The notes beneath the pieces are model-generated. The model made no database searches. It was not told the origin of the DNA and worked only from the letters and a program-made list of their open reading frames with translations. 64,000 bases of DNA from Actinobacteria bacterium HGW-Actinobacteria-1 (GTDB lineage: Bacteria > Actinomycetota > Coriobacteriia > Anaerosomatales > Anaerosomataceae): contig PHFB01000001.1 in NCBI GenBank assembly GCA_002841355.1, positions 310,001-374,000 on the forward strand, written 5' to 3'. Shown here one piece after another: positions 29,161 to 40,570 of the stretch (position 1 is the first letter of the stretch; every line of letters starts with the position of its first letter). The position numbers were made by a program, and so were the translations under genes.

Positions 29161-30498
29161 CTAGAAGCCGGGATCCTCGACGTCTGTCTTGGGACTGGTC
29201 CACACCGTCTCGCGGTTCCCGCCATGGATGTCCGAGCGCACCAGCTCGATCCACTCCTGCGATACCGGACCGTCGTTGTAACCGTACTCCACGCCGAGCA
29301 GCCCCGAGCCGGGATACCACGCGCCCGGACCGTACGACTCGCTCATGCCCAGGTCTGTGAAGCCGTCGGCGCCAATCTGCCAGAGCCGACCCTCCACCGA
29401 GTAGATCGGTCCTGTCGGATCCCAGCCGAGGAGGTTGACCTGGTAGACGCTCGAGAAGTCGCCCGGACGCTCCCAGCCGTTGGCGTCAAAGGCGTCTCGC
29501 GCGACAGCGCCGGTGGCTTCAATCGACTTGAACCTGACGCTCACCGTCTCCCCATTGGGCGACTCTACCAACTCAGGCCAGAACAGGATGTCACTGGCGC
29601 CATCCCAGGCAGCCACGGGAGCAGCGATGTCCTGCGATGTGATCAGCGGGCTCGTAACGACCTCACCTGTCGTCACATCGAAGACGACGAGTCTGCGTGA
29701 CAGCCCGGCGGAAACGTCATCTTCCTGGTAGATCGACTCATCGATGAGGTCTTCGATCGCGAAGTAGCGTCCCGAAGCCGACCAGCCGATCGGAACGAAC
29801 GTAATCACGGTCTCGGGCATCTTCGCCTTCACGCCTTCGCCGTGCGACTCCTTGTTGTTGAAGAGCAGCGCCGAGGGACCAGCTCCTTTGAGAGGGTTGA
29901 TCTCCAGGTACGCGATGGAATCTGCGGGTCCCGGCCACGCGTGCCACTTGGAGGGCACGTTGTCCGTGGGCTTGGAGCCGTCATCCAAATGCCATGCCAC
30001 CAGCCGCTTCGGCTTGTGGTCGAGTGCATCCCCGAGGGTGTCGACGGATGCTCCCATCTCGGCTTCTTCGTCGGTGACCGGCTCCAACCACACAACAGGC
30101 GCGGCGCTTTCCACGAACAGCACGCGATAGCCGTCAAGCGTCTGGGTCTCTCCCGTGGTGCTGTCCCAAACGGCGACTGACGGGTACGTGTACTCGCGGA
30201 GATACTGAACCACACCGTAGCGGCCGTTGCCTGACCACGCGACTGATTCTGTCGGTCCGATGAGGCCGGCCATGCCGTCTTCGCCGAGCAACTCCTCGGT
30301 GATGGAGTTGACCGAGTTGTCGAGAATCCACACCGCACCCACGCACCCGCCGATAAGCACGAGCAACACGACAACGCCCACGACCCACGGCCAAACCTTG
30401 CGGCGCGGTGCCGGTGATGTCTGCGGTGCAAGCGGTATCGGTGCCGGTGGCTGAACGGGAATCGCCTGCGGGATCGTCGGTTCGGTCTTGTCGGTCAC
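29161..30498 (-). CDS. Membrane-anchored beta-propeller-like protein of unknown function
   Basis: 445 residues. The N-terminal ~33 residues are a Pro-rich cytoplasmic segment (IPVQPPAPIPLAPQTSPAP), followed by one transmembrane helix (VWPWVVGVVVLLVLIGGCVGAV) and a ~385-residue external domain. The domain contains repeated units of the type GNGRYGVVQYLREY...SVAVWDSTTGE, ASGRYFAIED...VVFDVTTGEV and GWDPTGPIYSV, as in WD40/TolB-like propellers. No catalytic motif recognised. The GTG at 30498 has GAGGGGAG 7 nt upstream. The gene lies 13 bp after pyrD and 31 bp before pyrF, yet has no pyrimidine-related feature; acquisition into the operon is inferred. Confidence 0.72.
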   Translation of the reverse strand: MTDKTEPTIPQAIPVQPPAPIPLAPQTSPAPRRKVWPWVVGVVVLLVLIGGCVGAVWILDNSVNSITEELLGEDGMAGLIGPTESVAWSGNGRYGVVQYLREYTYPSVAVWDSTTGETQTLDGYRVLFVESAAPVVWLEPVTDEEAEMGASVDTLGDALDHKPKRLVAWHLDDGSKPTDNVPSKWHAWPGPADSIAYLEINPLKGAGPSALLFNNKESHGEGVKAKMPETVITFVPIGWSASGRYFAIEDLIDESIYQEDDVSAGLSRRLVVFDVTTGEVVTSPLITSQDIAAPVAAWDGASDILFWPELVESPNGETVSVRFKSIEATGAVARDAFDANGWERPGDFSSVYQVNLLGWDPTGPIYSVEGRLWQIGADGFTDLGMSESYGPGAWYPGSGLLGVEYGYNDGPVSQEWIELVRSDIHGGNRETVWTSPKTDVEDPGF

Positions 30499-30511: not shown

Positions 30512-31444
30512 TCATCGTTTGAGCGCCCCCGTCAGCGCCGAGACGCGGTCGATGCCACGCTCCCGGCAATACCGCTCCAGACCGTCGACCACGTGCATCG
30601 TGGTAGCCGGGTCCACGAAGTTCCCCGTCCCGACCGCAACGGCGGTGGCCCCGGCCAGCATGAACTCGACTGCGTCCTCGGCATTCATGATACCGCCCAT
30701 TCCGACGACCGGGACGGACACTGCCGAGGCGACCTGCCAGACCATGCGTACGGCGACCGGCTTGATCGCCGGACCGGAGAGTCCTCCGACCGTGCGCGCT
30801 AGCTTGGGTCGCCACGTATCGGTATCGATCGCCATGCCGAGAAGCGTGTTGATGAGGCTCACCGCGTCGGCACCCTCGGCCTCCACGCTGCGTGCAATCT
30901 CCGCTATGTCGGTGACATTCGGGCTCAACTTCACGATGAGGGTCTTGCCCGTTGCGGCACGCACGGCGCGCGTCACGTCGGCCGCGGCAGCGCACGAGGT
31001 GCCGAACGCCATACCGCCCTCATCCACGTTGGGGCACGAGATGTTGAGCTCGAGCGCGTCGATCGCGTCCTCGGCGTCGAGTCGCTCCGTCACCGCCACG
31101 TACTCGGCCAGACTGTGTCCCGAGACGTTCACGATGACCGGGACGTCCTGCTCGGCAAGCCATGCGAGGTCGTTCGCGCAGAAGGACTCGACGCCCGGAT
31201 TCTGCAGACCGATCGAGTTGAGCATGCCGCTTGCGGTCTCAGCGATGCGCGGGCTGGCGTTGCCGGCCCAGGGATTGAGGCTCACACCCTTGGTGACCAC
31301 GGCGCCGAGTCGACCGAGGTCCATGAACTCCGCGTATTCGCGGCCCGCAGCGAAGGTGCCCGAGCCGGTCATGACCGGATTGCGCAGCTCGAGTGCACCG
31401 ATCCTGACGCTCATGTCCACGTTGATGTTGTGCGCAGATTCCAC
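30512..31444 (-). CDS. pyrD: Dihydroorotate dehydrogenase B, catalytic subunit
   Basis: 310 residues of a class 1B FMN enzyme oxidising dihydroorotate to orotate. FMN barrel motifs: GSGTFAAGREY, NPWAGN, LNISCPNVDEGG, the active-site loop ... CAA (catalytic Cys in FGTSCAAAADVTRAV), VKLSPNV, GMGGIMNAEDA. The GTG at 31444 has AGGAG 5 nt upstream and starts just after the pyrK stop. PyrK supplies the NAD+ linkage, distinguishing this type from quinone-linked PyrD. Confidence 0.95.
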   Translation of the reverse strand: MESAHNINVDMSVRIGALELRNPVMTGSGTFAAGREYAEFMDLGRLGAVVTKGVSLNPWAGNASPRIAETASGMLNSIGLQNPGVESFCANDLAWLAEQDVPVIVNVSGHSLAEYVAVTERLDAEDAIDALELNISCPNVDEGGMAFGTSCAAAADVTRAVRAATGKTLIVKLSPNVTDIAEIARSVEAEGADAVSLINTLLGMAIDTDTWRPKLARTVGGLSGPAIKPVAVRMVWQVASAVSVPVVGMGGIMNAEDAVEFMLAGATAVAVGTGNFVDPATTMHVVDGLERYCRERGIDRVSALTGALKR

Positions 31445-31452
31445 TTCTTCTC

Positions 31453-32273
31453 CTAGTGCTTCGGCGGAATCTCGGAGACGTCCCACACGACGTGCGCGGC
31501 GTCGAACACCGGGCCGTCAACGCATGCCCGCCGCTGACCGTCGGTGGTCGTGACCACGCACGAAAGGCAGGCGCCGATGCCGCACGCCATCAACCGCTCG
31601 AGCGAGACCTGGCACGGCACGTCCGCCGCAGCAGCCTGCGCCGTCACGATGCGCGCCATCGCCTCGGGCCCGCAGACGTAGACGACGTCGGGGCGATCCG
31701 TCGCGAGCGCGCCCTCGACGAGCCCGGTCACGAAGCCGTGCTCGCCTGCGCTCCCATCGTCAGTGGCCGTTAGCACGCGGCGCGCGGTGGCCTCGAAGAC
31801 TCCCTGGCCGACGAGCCGCTCGGCAGTCGGCGCGCCCTGGGCGACCGTGACGGCGACTCCACACGCCGAGAGCTGCTCGGCGAGCATGCCCATCGGCGCG
31901 GCGCCAAGCCCACCCGCAACGAGGAGCGCGTGCGCGGTGCCTTCCGGAATCTCCCACCCGTGGCCGAGCGGACCGATCACGTCCATCTCCTCGCCGCGGC
32001 GCTTCTCGGCCAGTGCGCGGGTGCCCGTGCCGAGCACCTGGTAGAGGATATGAAGCCGATCCTCCTCGGCACGGTGGATCGAGAACGGACGCCGCAGGAT
32101 GAAGTCGGTGCCGGTGCTGATGCGCAGGTGCACGAACTGACCCGGGCGCACCGCACGCGCGACTCTGGGCGACTCAAGCACGATGAGCCCAACTCCCTCG
32201 GTCACGCGGTCGTTCGCAACGACGGTGACACGCTCCAGGAGCCGGTGGCCGTCCTCGTGTGTGCTTGCGCAGC

Positions 32274-32277
<4 letters not shown>
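31453..32277 (-). CDS. pyrK: Dihydroorotate dehydrogenase B electron-transfer subunit
   Basis: 274 residues, FAD and [2Fe-2S] protein that passes electrons from PyrD to NAD+. FAD motif [16 protein letters not shown]-binding [10 protein letters not shown]; four Cys at the C-terminus ([27 protein letters not shown]; three C's in CGIGACLSC plus one later). The GTG at 32277 overlaps the carB stop (GTGA), so the true start is near the ATP-grasp gene end. The longer frame upstream is a shadow of carB. Confidence 0.94.
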
Positions 32278-35519
<3,242 letters not shown>

Positions 35520-35527
35520 CTGTCTCC

Positions 35528-36373
35528 TTACGGAACGATCATGACGGGACACGACGCCTGGCGAAGCAGTGTCATCGACACGCTTCCCATGAGCGCCTCC
35601 TGTATCGCATTGCGACCGCGCGTGCCGGTGATGACACCGGTGGCGCGGCGTTCGTCGAGCTCTTCGAGAATCGCGCGCTGCGGCTCGCCGCGACGCACGA
35701 CCACGCTTGCCGAGATACCCTGCTGCTGCGCCATAGCCTGGAGGTTCTTCAGGTGGAACTCGGCACCCTCCTCTGCACGGCGCAGCTTCTCGCCGGTGAG
35801 CCCGGGGTCGACCGCGTGCATGAGATAGAGCGTCTTGATGAGGCCCTTGGGCAGCTCCATCGCCGAGCTGAACGCGTGCGACGCCGAGAGCGAGAAGTCG
35901 GTCGGCAACAGGACTTTCTCGCCGAACCGCTTGAGCAGCAATGTGGGGTCGCCCTGGTTCTTCAGCAGGTCGAACCGCGCGAGCAGCATCGGCACGGGCG
36001 CGTCGCGCAGGAGTCGCTCGGAAACCGAGCCGGCTACAAGCTGCGTCATGAGGCCCTTCGCGTGCGACCCGCACACGATAGCGTCGACGCCCGACTCGGT
36101 TGCAAGCGCGACGATGGTGTCGAACGGGTCGCCGGTGGGCACGCGGACCTCGACTTTGAGACCGGCGGCTTCAAGCACGGCAGCCGACACCCGCAGCTTG
36201 TCCCGCACCTCGTCGATCTTCTCGGCGATGATGGGACCTTCCATTCCGGAGGCCTCGACGACGTGCGTGAGAACCACCACCTTGACGCCAAGTGCGGGAA
36301 GCCCCGTGGCGAATCCAAGGATGCTCTCGCAGTCATCCGAGAAATCGGTCGGCAGCATGACCGTGCGCAACAT
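35528..36373 (-). CDS. Tandem-domain universal stress protein
   Basis: 281 residues with two UspA domains. Each begins with a hydrophobic strand and Asp ([25 protein letters not shown]). The second ends with the ATP-binding pattern G-2x-G-9x-G-S ([15 protein letters not shown]). The first has [17 protein letters not shown], also close to the pattern. ATP-binding stress or regulatory proteins; ligand not proven. It lies 2 bp from carA and 8 bp from carB, so transcription and translation are coupled to carbamoyl-phosphate synthase. Confidence 0.9.
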
Positions 36374-36375
36374 CG

Positions 36376-37644
36376 CTACACCTCATCCTCTAGAGCGAAC
36401 ACGTCGTCCTTGCCCTCCATCAGCCGCACGAAGGCGCCAAAGAGATACTTCGCATCGTGCGGACCTGGTGCCGCTTCAGGGTGATACTGGACCGAGAAGG
36501 CGTGCTGGTCGAGCGCGCGAACGCCCTCGACCGTCATGTCGTTGAGGTTCACGTGCGTGAGCTGGACGCCGCCGAAGCGCTCCGAGCGCACCACCGGCGC
36601 GACGTCGGCTTCCACCCATGCGCCGAGGTCGGTCGGGTCTAGGTCGAGGCCGCCAGAGCGCGCCACGTCAAGCTCGCCGATGCTTGAGAAGTCCACGCAG
36701 AAGCCGTGGTTCTGGCTCGTGATCTCCACCTGACCCGTCAGCAGGTTCTTGACCGGCTGGTTGCCGCCCCTGTGGCCGTACTTGAGCTTGTACGTGCCGC
36801 ACCCGAGCGCCAGCGAAAGCATCTGGTGTCCGAGACAGATCCCGAAGATCGGCTTGACCCCAAGCAACTCGCGCAGCGTCTCGTACAGATACGTGACCGC
36901 TGCCGGATCGCCGGGCCCGTTCGCGAAGAAGATACCATCCGGTCCAAGCGCAAGTGCATCTGCGGCGCTCGTCGTCGGCGGCACGACCACGACCTCACAG
37001 TCCGCCTCGGCAAGGCGGCGGAGGATGTTGTACTTGATGCCCGAGTCGAACGCGACCACCTTGAAGCGTGGCCGCACCGGCAGCACGCCGGTGTCGACCG
37101 GCAGGTCGCAACCGGGGGGCATCTCGTCGCCCCAGGTGTAGGGCTCGCGCGTGGCGACCTCGGCGACGAGATCGCGGCCGACAAGGCCGGGTGACGCCGC
37201 CGCCTTCGCCGCAAGCGACGCCGGGTCCAGATCGATCGTGGAGAGCACGGCGCGCATCGCGCCGCGTTCACGGATGTGGCGAGTGAGCCGCCGCGTATCG
37301 ACGCCCTCGATGGCGACCACGCCGAGACGCTCGAAGAACGCGCCGAGGGTCTCCTCGGCACGCCAGTTCGACGAGATCTTCGACATCTCGCGCATCACGA
37401 AGCCGGCTGCGAAGACGCCGCGCGACTCCATGTCGGCCGCGTTCACACCGTAGTTGCCGATGTGCGGCGACGTCATCGTCACGAGCTGACCGGCGTAGGA
37501 CGGGTCGGTGAAGACCTCCTGGTAGCCGGTCAACGACGTGTTGAAGACGGCCTCGCCCGTGGTCTCGCCGGGAACACCGCACGAGAATCCATGGAACGTC
37601 GTGCCATCCTCAAGCACCAGCAGTGCCGGCTGCCGCGTGATCAC
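36376..37644 (-). CDS. carA: Carbamoyl-phosphate synthase, small (glutaminase) subunit
   Basis: 422 residues, class I glutamine amidotransferase subunit. N-terminal domain DGTTFHGFSCGVPGETTGE, then the amidotransferase triad: nucleophile Cys in GICLGHQMLSLALG and HPEAAPGPHD with His and Glu. Supplies ammonia to CarB. The GTG at 37644 overlaps the pyrC stop (GTGA). The longer open frame from 37896 is pyrC shadow. Confidence 0.95.
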   Translation of the reverse strand: MITRQPALLVLEDGTTFHGFSCGVPGETTGEAVFNTSLTGYQEVFTDPSYAGQLVTMTSPHIGNYGVNAADMESRGVFAAGFVMREMSKISSNWRAEETLGAFFERLGVVAIEGVDTRRLTRHIRERGAMRAVLSTIDLDPASLAAKAAASPGLVGRDLVAEVATREPYTWGDEMPPGCDLPVDTGVLPVRPRFKVVAFDSGIKYNILRRLAEADCEVVVVPPTTSAADALALGPDGIFFANGPGDPAAVTYLYETLRELLGVKPIFGICLGHQMLSLALGCGTYKLKYGHRGGNQPVKNLLTGQVEITSQNHGFCVDFSSIGELDVARSGGLDLDPTDLGAWVEADVAPVVRSERFGGVQLTHVNLNDMTVEGVRALDQHAFSVQYHPEAAPGPHDAKYLFGAFVRLMEGKDDVFALEDEV

Positions 37645-38933
37645 CGGGCGACCACCTTCCCGTTCTTGAGTGCGAAGTATCCTCCGACGAGCACTTCGCT
37701 CGCCTTGCCAAGCAGCTTGCTGCCAAGAAACGCCGAGTTCCGCGATTTCGAGACGAACCACTCCCGCGTGATTTCGACGCGCGCCTCGGGGTCGATGATG
37801 GTGATGTCGGCGACCTGTCCTGCCGCCAGGCTCACGGCCGGAAGTCCGAGCGCGGCACGGGGGCCGTGGCACATCAACCGGGCGACATCGGCCCACGTGA
37901 GCTTCTCGGTGGCCACAAGGTGCGTGTTCACCAGGGAGAGCGCCGTCTCAAGGCCGGTGGTCCCGAACGGTGCCAACTCGAACTCCAACTCCTTCTCGTG
38001 TGCAGCGTGCGGAGCATGGTCGGTGGCGATACAGTCCACCGTGCCATCAAGCAGTCCCCCGACGAGCGCCGCGCGGTCCTCGGCACTCCGAAGCGGCGGG
38101 TTCATCTTCAGGTTCGTATCGTACCCGATGAGCACGTCTTCATCGAGGAAGAGATGGTGCGGGGTGACCTCACAGGTGACGCGCAGGCCGCGCGCCTTCG
38201 CCTCGCGAACGAGCGCGACGGAACCCGCTGTCGACAGGTGCGCAAGGTGCAGGCGACACCCGGTGAGCTCTGCTAGCCGGATGTCACGCGCGACCATCGT
38301 CTCCTCGGCGGCAGCGGGCCAGCCCGGCATCCCAAGCCGAGTGGAGATGACGCCCTCGTTCACGACGCCGTGTCCCACGAGCGATTCGTCCTCGCAGTGC
38401 GCGATGAGCGGCGCGTCGAACGCCTTGAGGTAGTCCATCGCGATCCGTGCCACGCCAGCGCTCTGAACGCCGCGACCGTCGTCCGAGAACGCGACGGCGC
38501 CCTCCGAGAGCATGTCGCCGATCTCGGCAAGCGCAACGCCCTCCTGCCCTTTCGTGATCGCGCCGATCGGGTACACCCGCACGACGCCCTCCTCGGCAGC
38601 GCGCTCCACGATGAAGCGCACCTTCGAGCCCGTGTCGCAGATCGGCGAGGTGTTCGGCATCGCGCAGACAGCGGTGAAGCCACCGTGCGCCGCAGCTGCG
38701 GTACCGCTGGCAACCGACTCCTCGTCCTCGCGTCCGGGCTCACGCAAGTGCGTGTGCACGTCGACGAGACCCGGAAGCACAACCTTCTCGCTGACATCGA
38801 GGGTTTCGCCCTTGGGGATCGAGAGGTCCTTCCCGATCTCGACGATCACGCCATCCCGGATGATGATGTCGGCGACCTCGTCGATTCCCGCGACGGGATC
38901 GACCACGCGCCCGTTCTTAAGCAGCAGTGCCAC
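37641..38933 (-). CDS. pyrC: Dihydroorotase
   Basis: 430 residues of the class I zinc amidohydrolase cyclising carbamoyl aspartate. Zinc motif DVHTHLREPGREDEES; later H residues in HCEDESL and ATDHAPHAAHEKE. The GTG at 38933 overlaps the end of pyrB by 17 nt and has GGAGG 8 nt upstream. Normal length for the class. Confidence 0.95.
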   Translation of the reverse strand: MALLLKNGRVVDPVAGIDEVADIIIRDGVIVEIGKDLSIPKGETLDVSEKVVLPGLVDVHTHLREPGREDEESVASGTAAAAHGGFTAVCAMPNTSPICDTGSKVRFIVERAAEEGVVRVYPIGAITKGQEGVALAEIGDMLSEGAVAFSDDGRGVQSAGVARIAMDYLKAFDAPLIAHCEDESLVGHGVVNEGVISTRLGMPGWPAAAEETMVARDIRLAELTGCRLHLAHLSTAGSVALVREAKARGLRVTCEVTPHHLFLDEDVLIGYDTNLKMNPPLRSAEDRAALVGGLLDGTVDCIATDHAPHAAHEKELEFELAPFGTTGLETALSLVNTHLVATEKLTWADVARLMCHGPRAALGLPAVSLAAGQVADITIIDPEARVEITREWFVSKSRNSAFLGSKLLGKASEVLVGGYFALKNGKVVAR

Positions 38934-39852
38934 CGCTCTCACCTCCAAGCAGCAGGTACATGACGGCCATTCGGACCGCGACACCCGCGTTGACCTGGTC
39001 AAGGACAACCGAACGAGGCGAGTCTGCCACGTCGGACGAGATTTCAACGCCGCGGTTCATCGGTCCCGGATGCATGACGATCATCTCGGGCTTGGCCGCT
39101 GCGAGCCGTTTGCCGTTCATGCCGTAGAGCTTCGCGTACTCGCGATTGCTCGGAATGGGCATCGCGTCGGCACGCTCGAACTGAACCCGAAGCATGTACG
39201 CGACGTCGAGGGTTGGGAGCGCCTCATCGAAGGAGTACATGACCTCGGCGCCCAGCACGTCCGGTCGCGCTGGCATGAGCGTCGGCGGTCCGATGACGAT
39301 CGGCGTAGCGCCCATCATCCTGAGCGCGGGCACGAGCGACCCGGCAACGCGCGAGTGACAGATGTCGCCGACGATGCCCACGCGCAGTCCCTCGAGCTTC
39401 CCGAGCGAGCGGCGCATAGTGAACAGATCGAGCAGCGCCTGCGTGGGATGCTCGTTCACGCCGTCGCCACCGTTGACGATGTGCGCGTCCATGCAGTCCA
39501 GCAGCATCTGCGGCGCACCGGCGTACCTGTGCCGGATGACCACCAGGTCGCATGCCATCGCTGAGAGCGTCTTGGCGGTATCGCGCAGCGACTCGCCCTT
39601 CACCGTCGCCGACGAGGATGCCGTGAAGTTCACGCCGTCCGCCGAGAGACGCTTCGCGGCGATCTCGAAGGACATTCGCGTGCGCGTCGAGGGCTCGAGG
39701 AACAGGTTCACGACCGTGCGGCCTCGCAGGGTCGGGAGCTTCTTGATGCGGCGCTCGTTGACCTCCATGAACGACTCGGCCGTGTCGAGGATCGTGGTGA
39801 TGTCCTCGGCGGTCATGTCGCTCACGGTCATGATGTGCTTGCAGGAGAGCAT
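38917..39852 (-). CDS. pyrB: Aspartate carbamoyltransferase catalytic subunit
   Basis: 311 residues; condenses carbamoyl phosphate and aspartate. Carbamoyl-phosphate motif [29 protein letters not shown] and the later [11 protein letters not shown]. No pyrI regulatory subunit gene is near. The ATG follows the pyrR stop directly (TAGATG) with GAGGAG before it. Confidence 0.96.
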
Positions 39853-40422
<570 letters not shown>

Positions 40423-40450: not shown

Positions 40451-40485
40451 ACAAAACAATGCCTCCTTGCGAGTGGCAAGAAGGC
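40451..40485 (-). terminator. Attenuator terminator in pyr leader
   Basis: 10-bp stem (GCCTTCTTGC / GCAAGGAGGC, one G-U) with a 5-nt loop, followed in RNA by AUUGUUUUGU. The 5' arm can instead pair with the upstream GCAAGGAGC, giving a candidate antiterminator. Confidence 0.82.
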
Positions 40486-40532
40486 TGTCTGCGTTGGCGC
40501 GCCGCGATGCAGGCGCGGGGTATGCGGTTGCT

Positions 40533-40570
40533 CCTTGCCGGCCTCACGGGACCGGGTTTAAAGGTCAAGG
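40533..40570 (-). promoter_or_regulatory. pyrR leader: PyrR-binding hairpin (anti-antiterminator)
   Basis: In RNA sense it reads CCGG-UCCCGUGAGG-CCGG, flanked by an outer CCUUG/CAAGG stem. The loop fits the PyrR consensus UCCNGNGAGG. Its 3' arm includes the GCAAGG needed by the antiterminator, so PyrR/UMP binding favours the downstream terminator. Confidence 0.8.

Follow-up and report, generated by a model that had tools for sequence, protein, structure and literature searches.

A tandem universal stress protein gene retained between carA and carB in the pyrimidine operon of Coriobacteriia: a possible accessory factor of carbamoyl-phosphate synthesis

In the pyrimidine operon of Actinobacteria bacterium HGW-Actinobacteria-1, a gene for a tandem universal stress protein (Usp) lies between carA and carB, the genes for the small and the large subunit of carbamoyl-phosphate synthetase (CPSase). 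The order carA-usp-carB is retained in dozens of species from two classes of actinobacteria, and a real, though still putative, functional link is therefore suggested. Tentatively, and with less than even confidence, we consider the tandem Usp to be a nucleotide-loaded accessory factor tuned to carbamoyl-phosphate synthesis, presumably through a direct link to CPSase. All coordinates refer to the window, the whole stretch of 64,000 nucleotides that was analysed, unless a related locus is named.

All three genes are encoded head to tail by the minus strand. carA (36376..37644; Pfam domains CPSase_sm_chain and GATase) ends with a TAG at 36378-36376, and after 2 bp (CG) the 281 aa reading frame of usp (35528..36373; PF00582 twice) starts with an ATG at 36373. 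It ends with a TAA at 35530-35528 and is separated by the 8 bp GGAGACAG (35520..35527) from the ATG at 35519 that starts carB (32274..35519; CPSase_L_D1/D2/D3 and an MGS-like allosteric domain). On the coding strand the junctions read GAGGATGAGGTGTAG-CG-ATG for carA/usp and CCGTAA-GGAGACAG-ATG for usp/carB. The first-pass annotation had placed a tandem usp between carA and carB with gaps of 2 bp and 8 bp, and both coordinates and gaps proved to be exact. For both usp and carB there is a plausible ribosome-binding site, either within the last bases of the preceding gene or in the gap; the 8-bp gap contains a probable site for carB.

According to Pfam, the operon has the order pyrR, pyrB, pyrC, carA, usp, carB, pyrK, pyrD, all on the minus strand. 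pyrR (39853..40413; Pribosyltran and UPRTase) is followed by pyrB for aspartate carbamoyltransferase (38917..39852; OTCace_N, OTCace) and pyrC for dihydroorotase (37641..38918; Amidohydro_1, DHOase), for which an upstream start is possible. The likely start of carA is a GTG overlapping the pyrC stop. Behind carB follow pyrK for the electron-transfer subunit of dihydroorotate dehydrogenase (31453..32289; DHODB_Fe-S_bind) and pyrD for the dehydrogenase itself (30512..31426; DHO_dh). Downstream of pyrD there are a 445-aa ORF, pyrF, pyrE (a context-based label for a product with a Pribosyltran domain) and, separated from these by a gap, the gene for a guanylate kinase. The product of the 445-aa ORF (29161-30498, minus strand) is matched by no Pfam family and probably has a single membrane anchor; homologues with 51-80% identity are found at the same position in three related loci (L036, L038, L039).

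A PyrR-binding leader RNA (RF00515) was detected by cmscan directly upstream of pyrR (40452..40568, minus strand). It matches the full-length model with 43.8 bits (E 0.0022), which is below the gathering score of 54. In four related operons the leader upstream of pyrR scored 46.8-59.3 bits, two of them above the cut-off. A scan of 35300-37700 revealed no promoter-like or terminator-like sites, which is weak evidence where the sigma-70 consensus is applied to a GC-rich actinobacterium, and the gaps between carA and usp and between usp and carB are too small for a promoter or a terminator. Independent transcription of usp was considered and judged unlikely, since no promoter-like or terminator-like site lies between the genes, with the same weakness of the sigma-70 scan in such a host. 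We predict that carA, usp and carB are on a single transcript under PyrR control. A shared message for the three genes had been suggested before, and the missing promoters and terminators and the leader in front of the operon support this view and make separate transcription unlikely.

The Usp product belongs to the Usp family (PF00582, 160.2 bits versus a cut-off of 24, in two stretches of the 281 aa). The Pfam matches and full-length matches to tandem structures reveal two complete Usp domains in a single chain, the tandem type. An AlphaFold2 model has a mean pLDDT of 89, with values below 50 only in segments 107-115 and 254-262, the two nucleotide loops. The best fold match of this model is the tandem Usp 3LOQ (Z 26.9 over 259 residues, 27% identity), which was also first in a sequence-profile search (E 3.4e-36), and further top matches are the tandem Usps 3AB7/3AB8 (TTHA0350) and Rv2623. 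From the model, the protein is predicted to be a standard tandem Usp with a Rossmann-like alpha/beta fold. Assignment to UspE (NF008380 equivalog) was rejected, with 42.2 bits versus a cut-off of 227. A search of plasmids gave mainly haloarchaeal Usps with about 30% identity.

The loop of domain 2 is GTRG-9x-GS and matches the full motif G-2x-G-9x-G-(S/T), while domain 1 has GSHA-9x-GS, with Ala for the second Gly. The strict motif is present in domain 2 of 44 of the 52 class orthologs and in all nine of the second class (9/9). In domain 1 the strict loop is found in 21 of the 52 class orthologs, and in 47 if the second Gly is left free. The Usp protein may well carry ATP or AMP. The Ala in domain 1 need not abolish binding, because TTHA0350 of Thermus thermophilus binds two ATP despite a degenerate motif in one domain (PMC3673472). 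Behind the second strand of domain 1, a segment S-G-x-E-G-P-x-I is common to the class orthologs and not kept in more distant Usps; it is a candidate contact site.

The first-pass annotation had proposed to follow the order carA-usp-carB across related genomes, and this order was found to be kept far beyond this genome, in two classes. Balanced synthesis of Usp with CPSase and a connection between nucleotide supply and stress signalling, both put forward in that annotation, are conjectural. The search covered a single phylum, with genomes that are mostly metagenome assemblies and some of them incomplete; genes of related loci that lie beyond the pyr operon were named by reading their sequence, except where a family search is given. 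A contig scan reached close relatives only, with one match of 90% identity from the Coriobacteriia. In 28 of 30 genomes including this one (L006-L035), usp is flanked by carA and carB; for the remaining two (L023, L031) the contig ends too early on one side to show both flanks. Among 218 sampled genomes of the class, at least 57 placed carB starts have a Usp gene directly upstream. Considering the matches listed, the gap between usp and these 57 carB starts is -1 to 113 nt (median 19), and within the taxonomic order to which this genome belongs, Usp is directly upstream in 52 of the 60 genomes whose carB start was placed and missing in the other eight. The remaining five placed starts, again among the matches listed, belong to the class families f17, f20 and f21 and have a Usp of 31-33% identity in the same slot. 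Chance or an assembly artefact was rejected as an explanation, since tens of other, independent assemblies have the three genes arranged in this way.

Not all members of the class have usp. In the 11 class genomes without it for which the junction was computed (L041-L051), carA and carB are adjacent (gap -22 to +9 nt), and one of these genomes (G018) belongs to the same genus as one with usp (G010). No match at E 1e-15 was obtained for families f18, f19 and f22, and one locus per family is also without usp. In one locus of f22 (L054, G072), about 207 nt with no listed ORF separate carA and carB, a junction that is tight elsewhere. On a carB tree built from 200 residues, in which many forks are weak, presence and absence of usp require about 10 changes, at least six of them forced by supported branches. 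usp is an old member of the operon, mostly vertically inherited and apparently lost repeatedly. Since usp is missing in several lineages with adjacent carA and carB, its product is accessory rather than an essential subunit, and the repeated absences imply that CPSase works without it.

Selection on usp was compared with that on its neighbours. Against four close relatives, dN/dS of usp is 0.05-0.14, within the range of carA and carB, a sign of strong purifying selection. A decaying or recently acquired insert was rejected on the basis of these neighbour-like values and the long conservation. Strong purifying selection and the position exactly between the subunit genes, with short gaps, would also fit an assembly or stability partner that helps CarA and CarB to meet or stabilises one of them, with nucleotide binding being secondary. 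We regard such a role as improbable, since usp is absent from many relatives with similar CarAB and the conserved ATP loop of domain 2 is needless for a pure scaffold.

In a profile search of 396 genomes of the phylum, strong relatives were found outside the class (E 1e-49 to 1e-61). Among them, nine genomes from five families (f68, f81, f82, f87, f90) have carA-usp-carB, and all nine belong to one second class, of which 36 genomes were sampled. Two of these loci (L115 and L116) have the entire order pyrR-B-C-carA-usp-carB-pyrK-pyrD together with the PyrR leader. Many genomes of the second class have carA-carB without usp. A phylum-wide trait was rejected, as car-linked matches were restricted to two classes among the 396 genomes. 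In f92, also of the second class, a gene for a UbiE-like SAM methyltransferase fills the slot between carA and carB (L122:502-1275, G521), and the Usp ortholog is located elsewhere.

In the Usp tree, the car-linked Usps of the own class form a single clade (support 99/100). Those of the second class form a separate clade that includes the relocated f92 copy and has nuo-linked Usps as sister group. A single clade for all car-linked Usps was rejected (AU p 0.0005). Possibly, related Usps entered the slot between carA and carB twice, once per class, and not once in an ancestor, which would be compatible with any functional reading; we regard this origin as less likely than not. The two car-linked clades, the nuo-linked sister of the second and the rejected one-clade tree argue for it, but the three changes on the tree also fit one gain and two relocations (the nuo group and L091), both classes have usp in an identical slot and orientation, and both the split from the outer Usps (52/74) and the rooting are weak.

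Relatives of the car-linked Usps are found in other surroundings. The nearest Usps of f25 and f39 come after genes that, judged from sequence, encode the apparent last complex I subunits. Tandem Usps of the sister group are located after apparent complex I genes in three loci (L107:2012-2908, L108:6610-8396, L109:3718-4593), with two copies in a tandem row in L108. More distant tandem Usps adjoin genes that, judged from sequence, appear to encode Acr3-type arsenite pumps and permeases (L111, L113, L119). With sister Usps downstream of complex I genes and others adjoining Acr3-like pumps, the Usp family is not tied to CPSase. A competing explanation is that usp is a passenger of the operon: its product would serve stress or energy functions in general, would be encoded there only for co-expression with growth-related genes and would never touch CPSase. 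Close relatives downstream of complex I genes and in the neighbourhood of Acr3-like and further transport genes indicate that the family moves between operons, and the repeated losses of usp point in the same direction. Against this stands the slot between the subunit genes, which is identical in two classes and never elsewhere in the operon. In addition, no usp ortholog away from carAB was seen in the own class, considering strong orthologs with a readable flank among the matches listed. On balance we consider a passenger nearly as likely as the accessory role.

We prefer the accessory-regulator reading for two reasons: the slot invariably lies between the genes of the two CPSase subunits, and domain 2 retains its ATP loop. 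In this scheme a single PyrR-controlled message would yield Usp together with CarA and CarB, and Usp, loaded with ATP or AMP, would signal the adenylate state to CPSase by direct contact. CPSase consumes two ATP per turnover. Under energy shortage, Usp would slow or protect the enzyme; nucleotide binding, the contact with CPSase and the direction of the effect are all inferred. The role appears dispensable, because many carA-carB pairs have apparently lost usp. Some points speak against an accessory of CPSase: CarB keeps its own MGS domain, domain 1 is without the second Gly, and the car-linked Usps fail to form a single clade in the tree, as indicated by the AU test. A more far-reaching version, by which CPSase of Coriobacteriia and the second class would have Usp as a third component dedicated to energy sensing, with adenylate control of the step that initiates pyrimidine (and arginine) synthesis, is less likely than not.

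Usps are widespread and their structures are well known. AF1760 of Archaeoglobus fulgidus (PDB 3LOQ), a tandem Usp with AMP, has two Usp domains per chain like the window Usp and is its best profile and fold match. We know of no link of AF1760 to carAB. TeaD (PDB 3HGM) is an operon-dedicated Usp of the TeaABC transporter. Like the window Usp, it is encoded together with the machinery that it presumably serves, and its fold matches one domain; it differs in being a single-domain protein and part of a transporter system, not of a biosynthetic enzyme. The second domain of AF1760 has a typical ATP loop (PMC3673472). TTHA0350 (PDB 3AB7/3AB8) is likewise tandem (Z 23.6), with 25% identity to the window Usp. 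Rv2623 of Mycobacterium tuberculosis (PDB 3CIS, 2JAX) binds ATP and regulates growth (PMC2682197), and its partner is the transporter Rv1747 (PMC5549992); it shares the tandem architecture and fold of the window Usp (Z 22.4), with 22% identity over the aligned part. Rv2624c changes arginine abundance (PMC5071874). The mycobacterial proteins are precedents for ATP-bound Usps with effects on growth, a partner protein and the abundance of arginine; none of them concerns CPSase.

Our literature search, with most subscription journals outside its reach, found no description of a link between usp and carAB. To our knowledge, no target is known for most Usps. A Usp that has long been retained between the subunit genes of a named enzyme provides a concrete, testable target. 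If it is true that Usp acts on CPSase, this would add an extra energy-sensing layer to the supply of pyrimidines and arginine.
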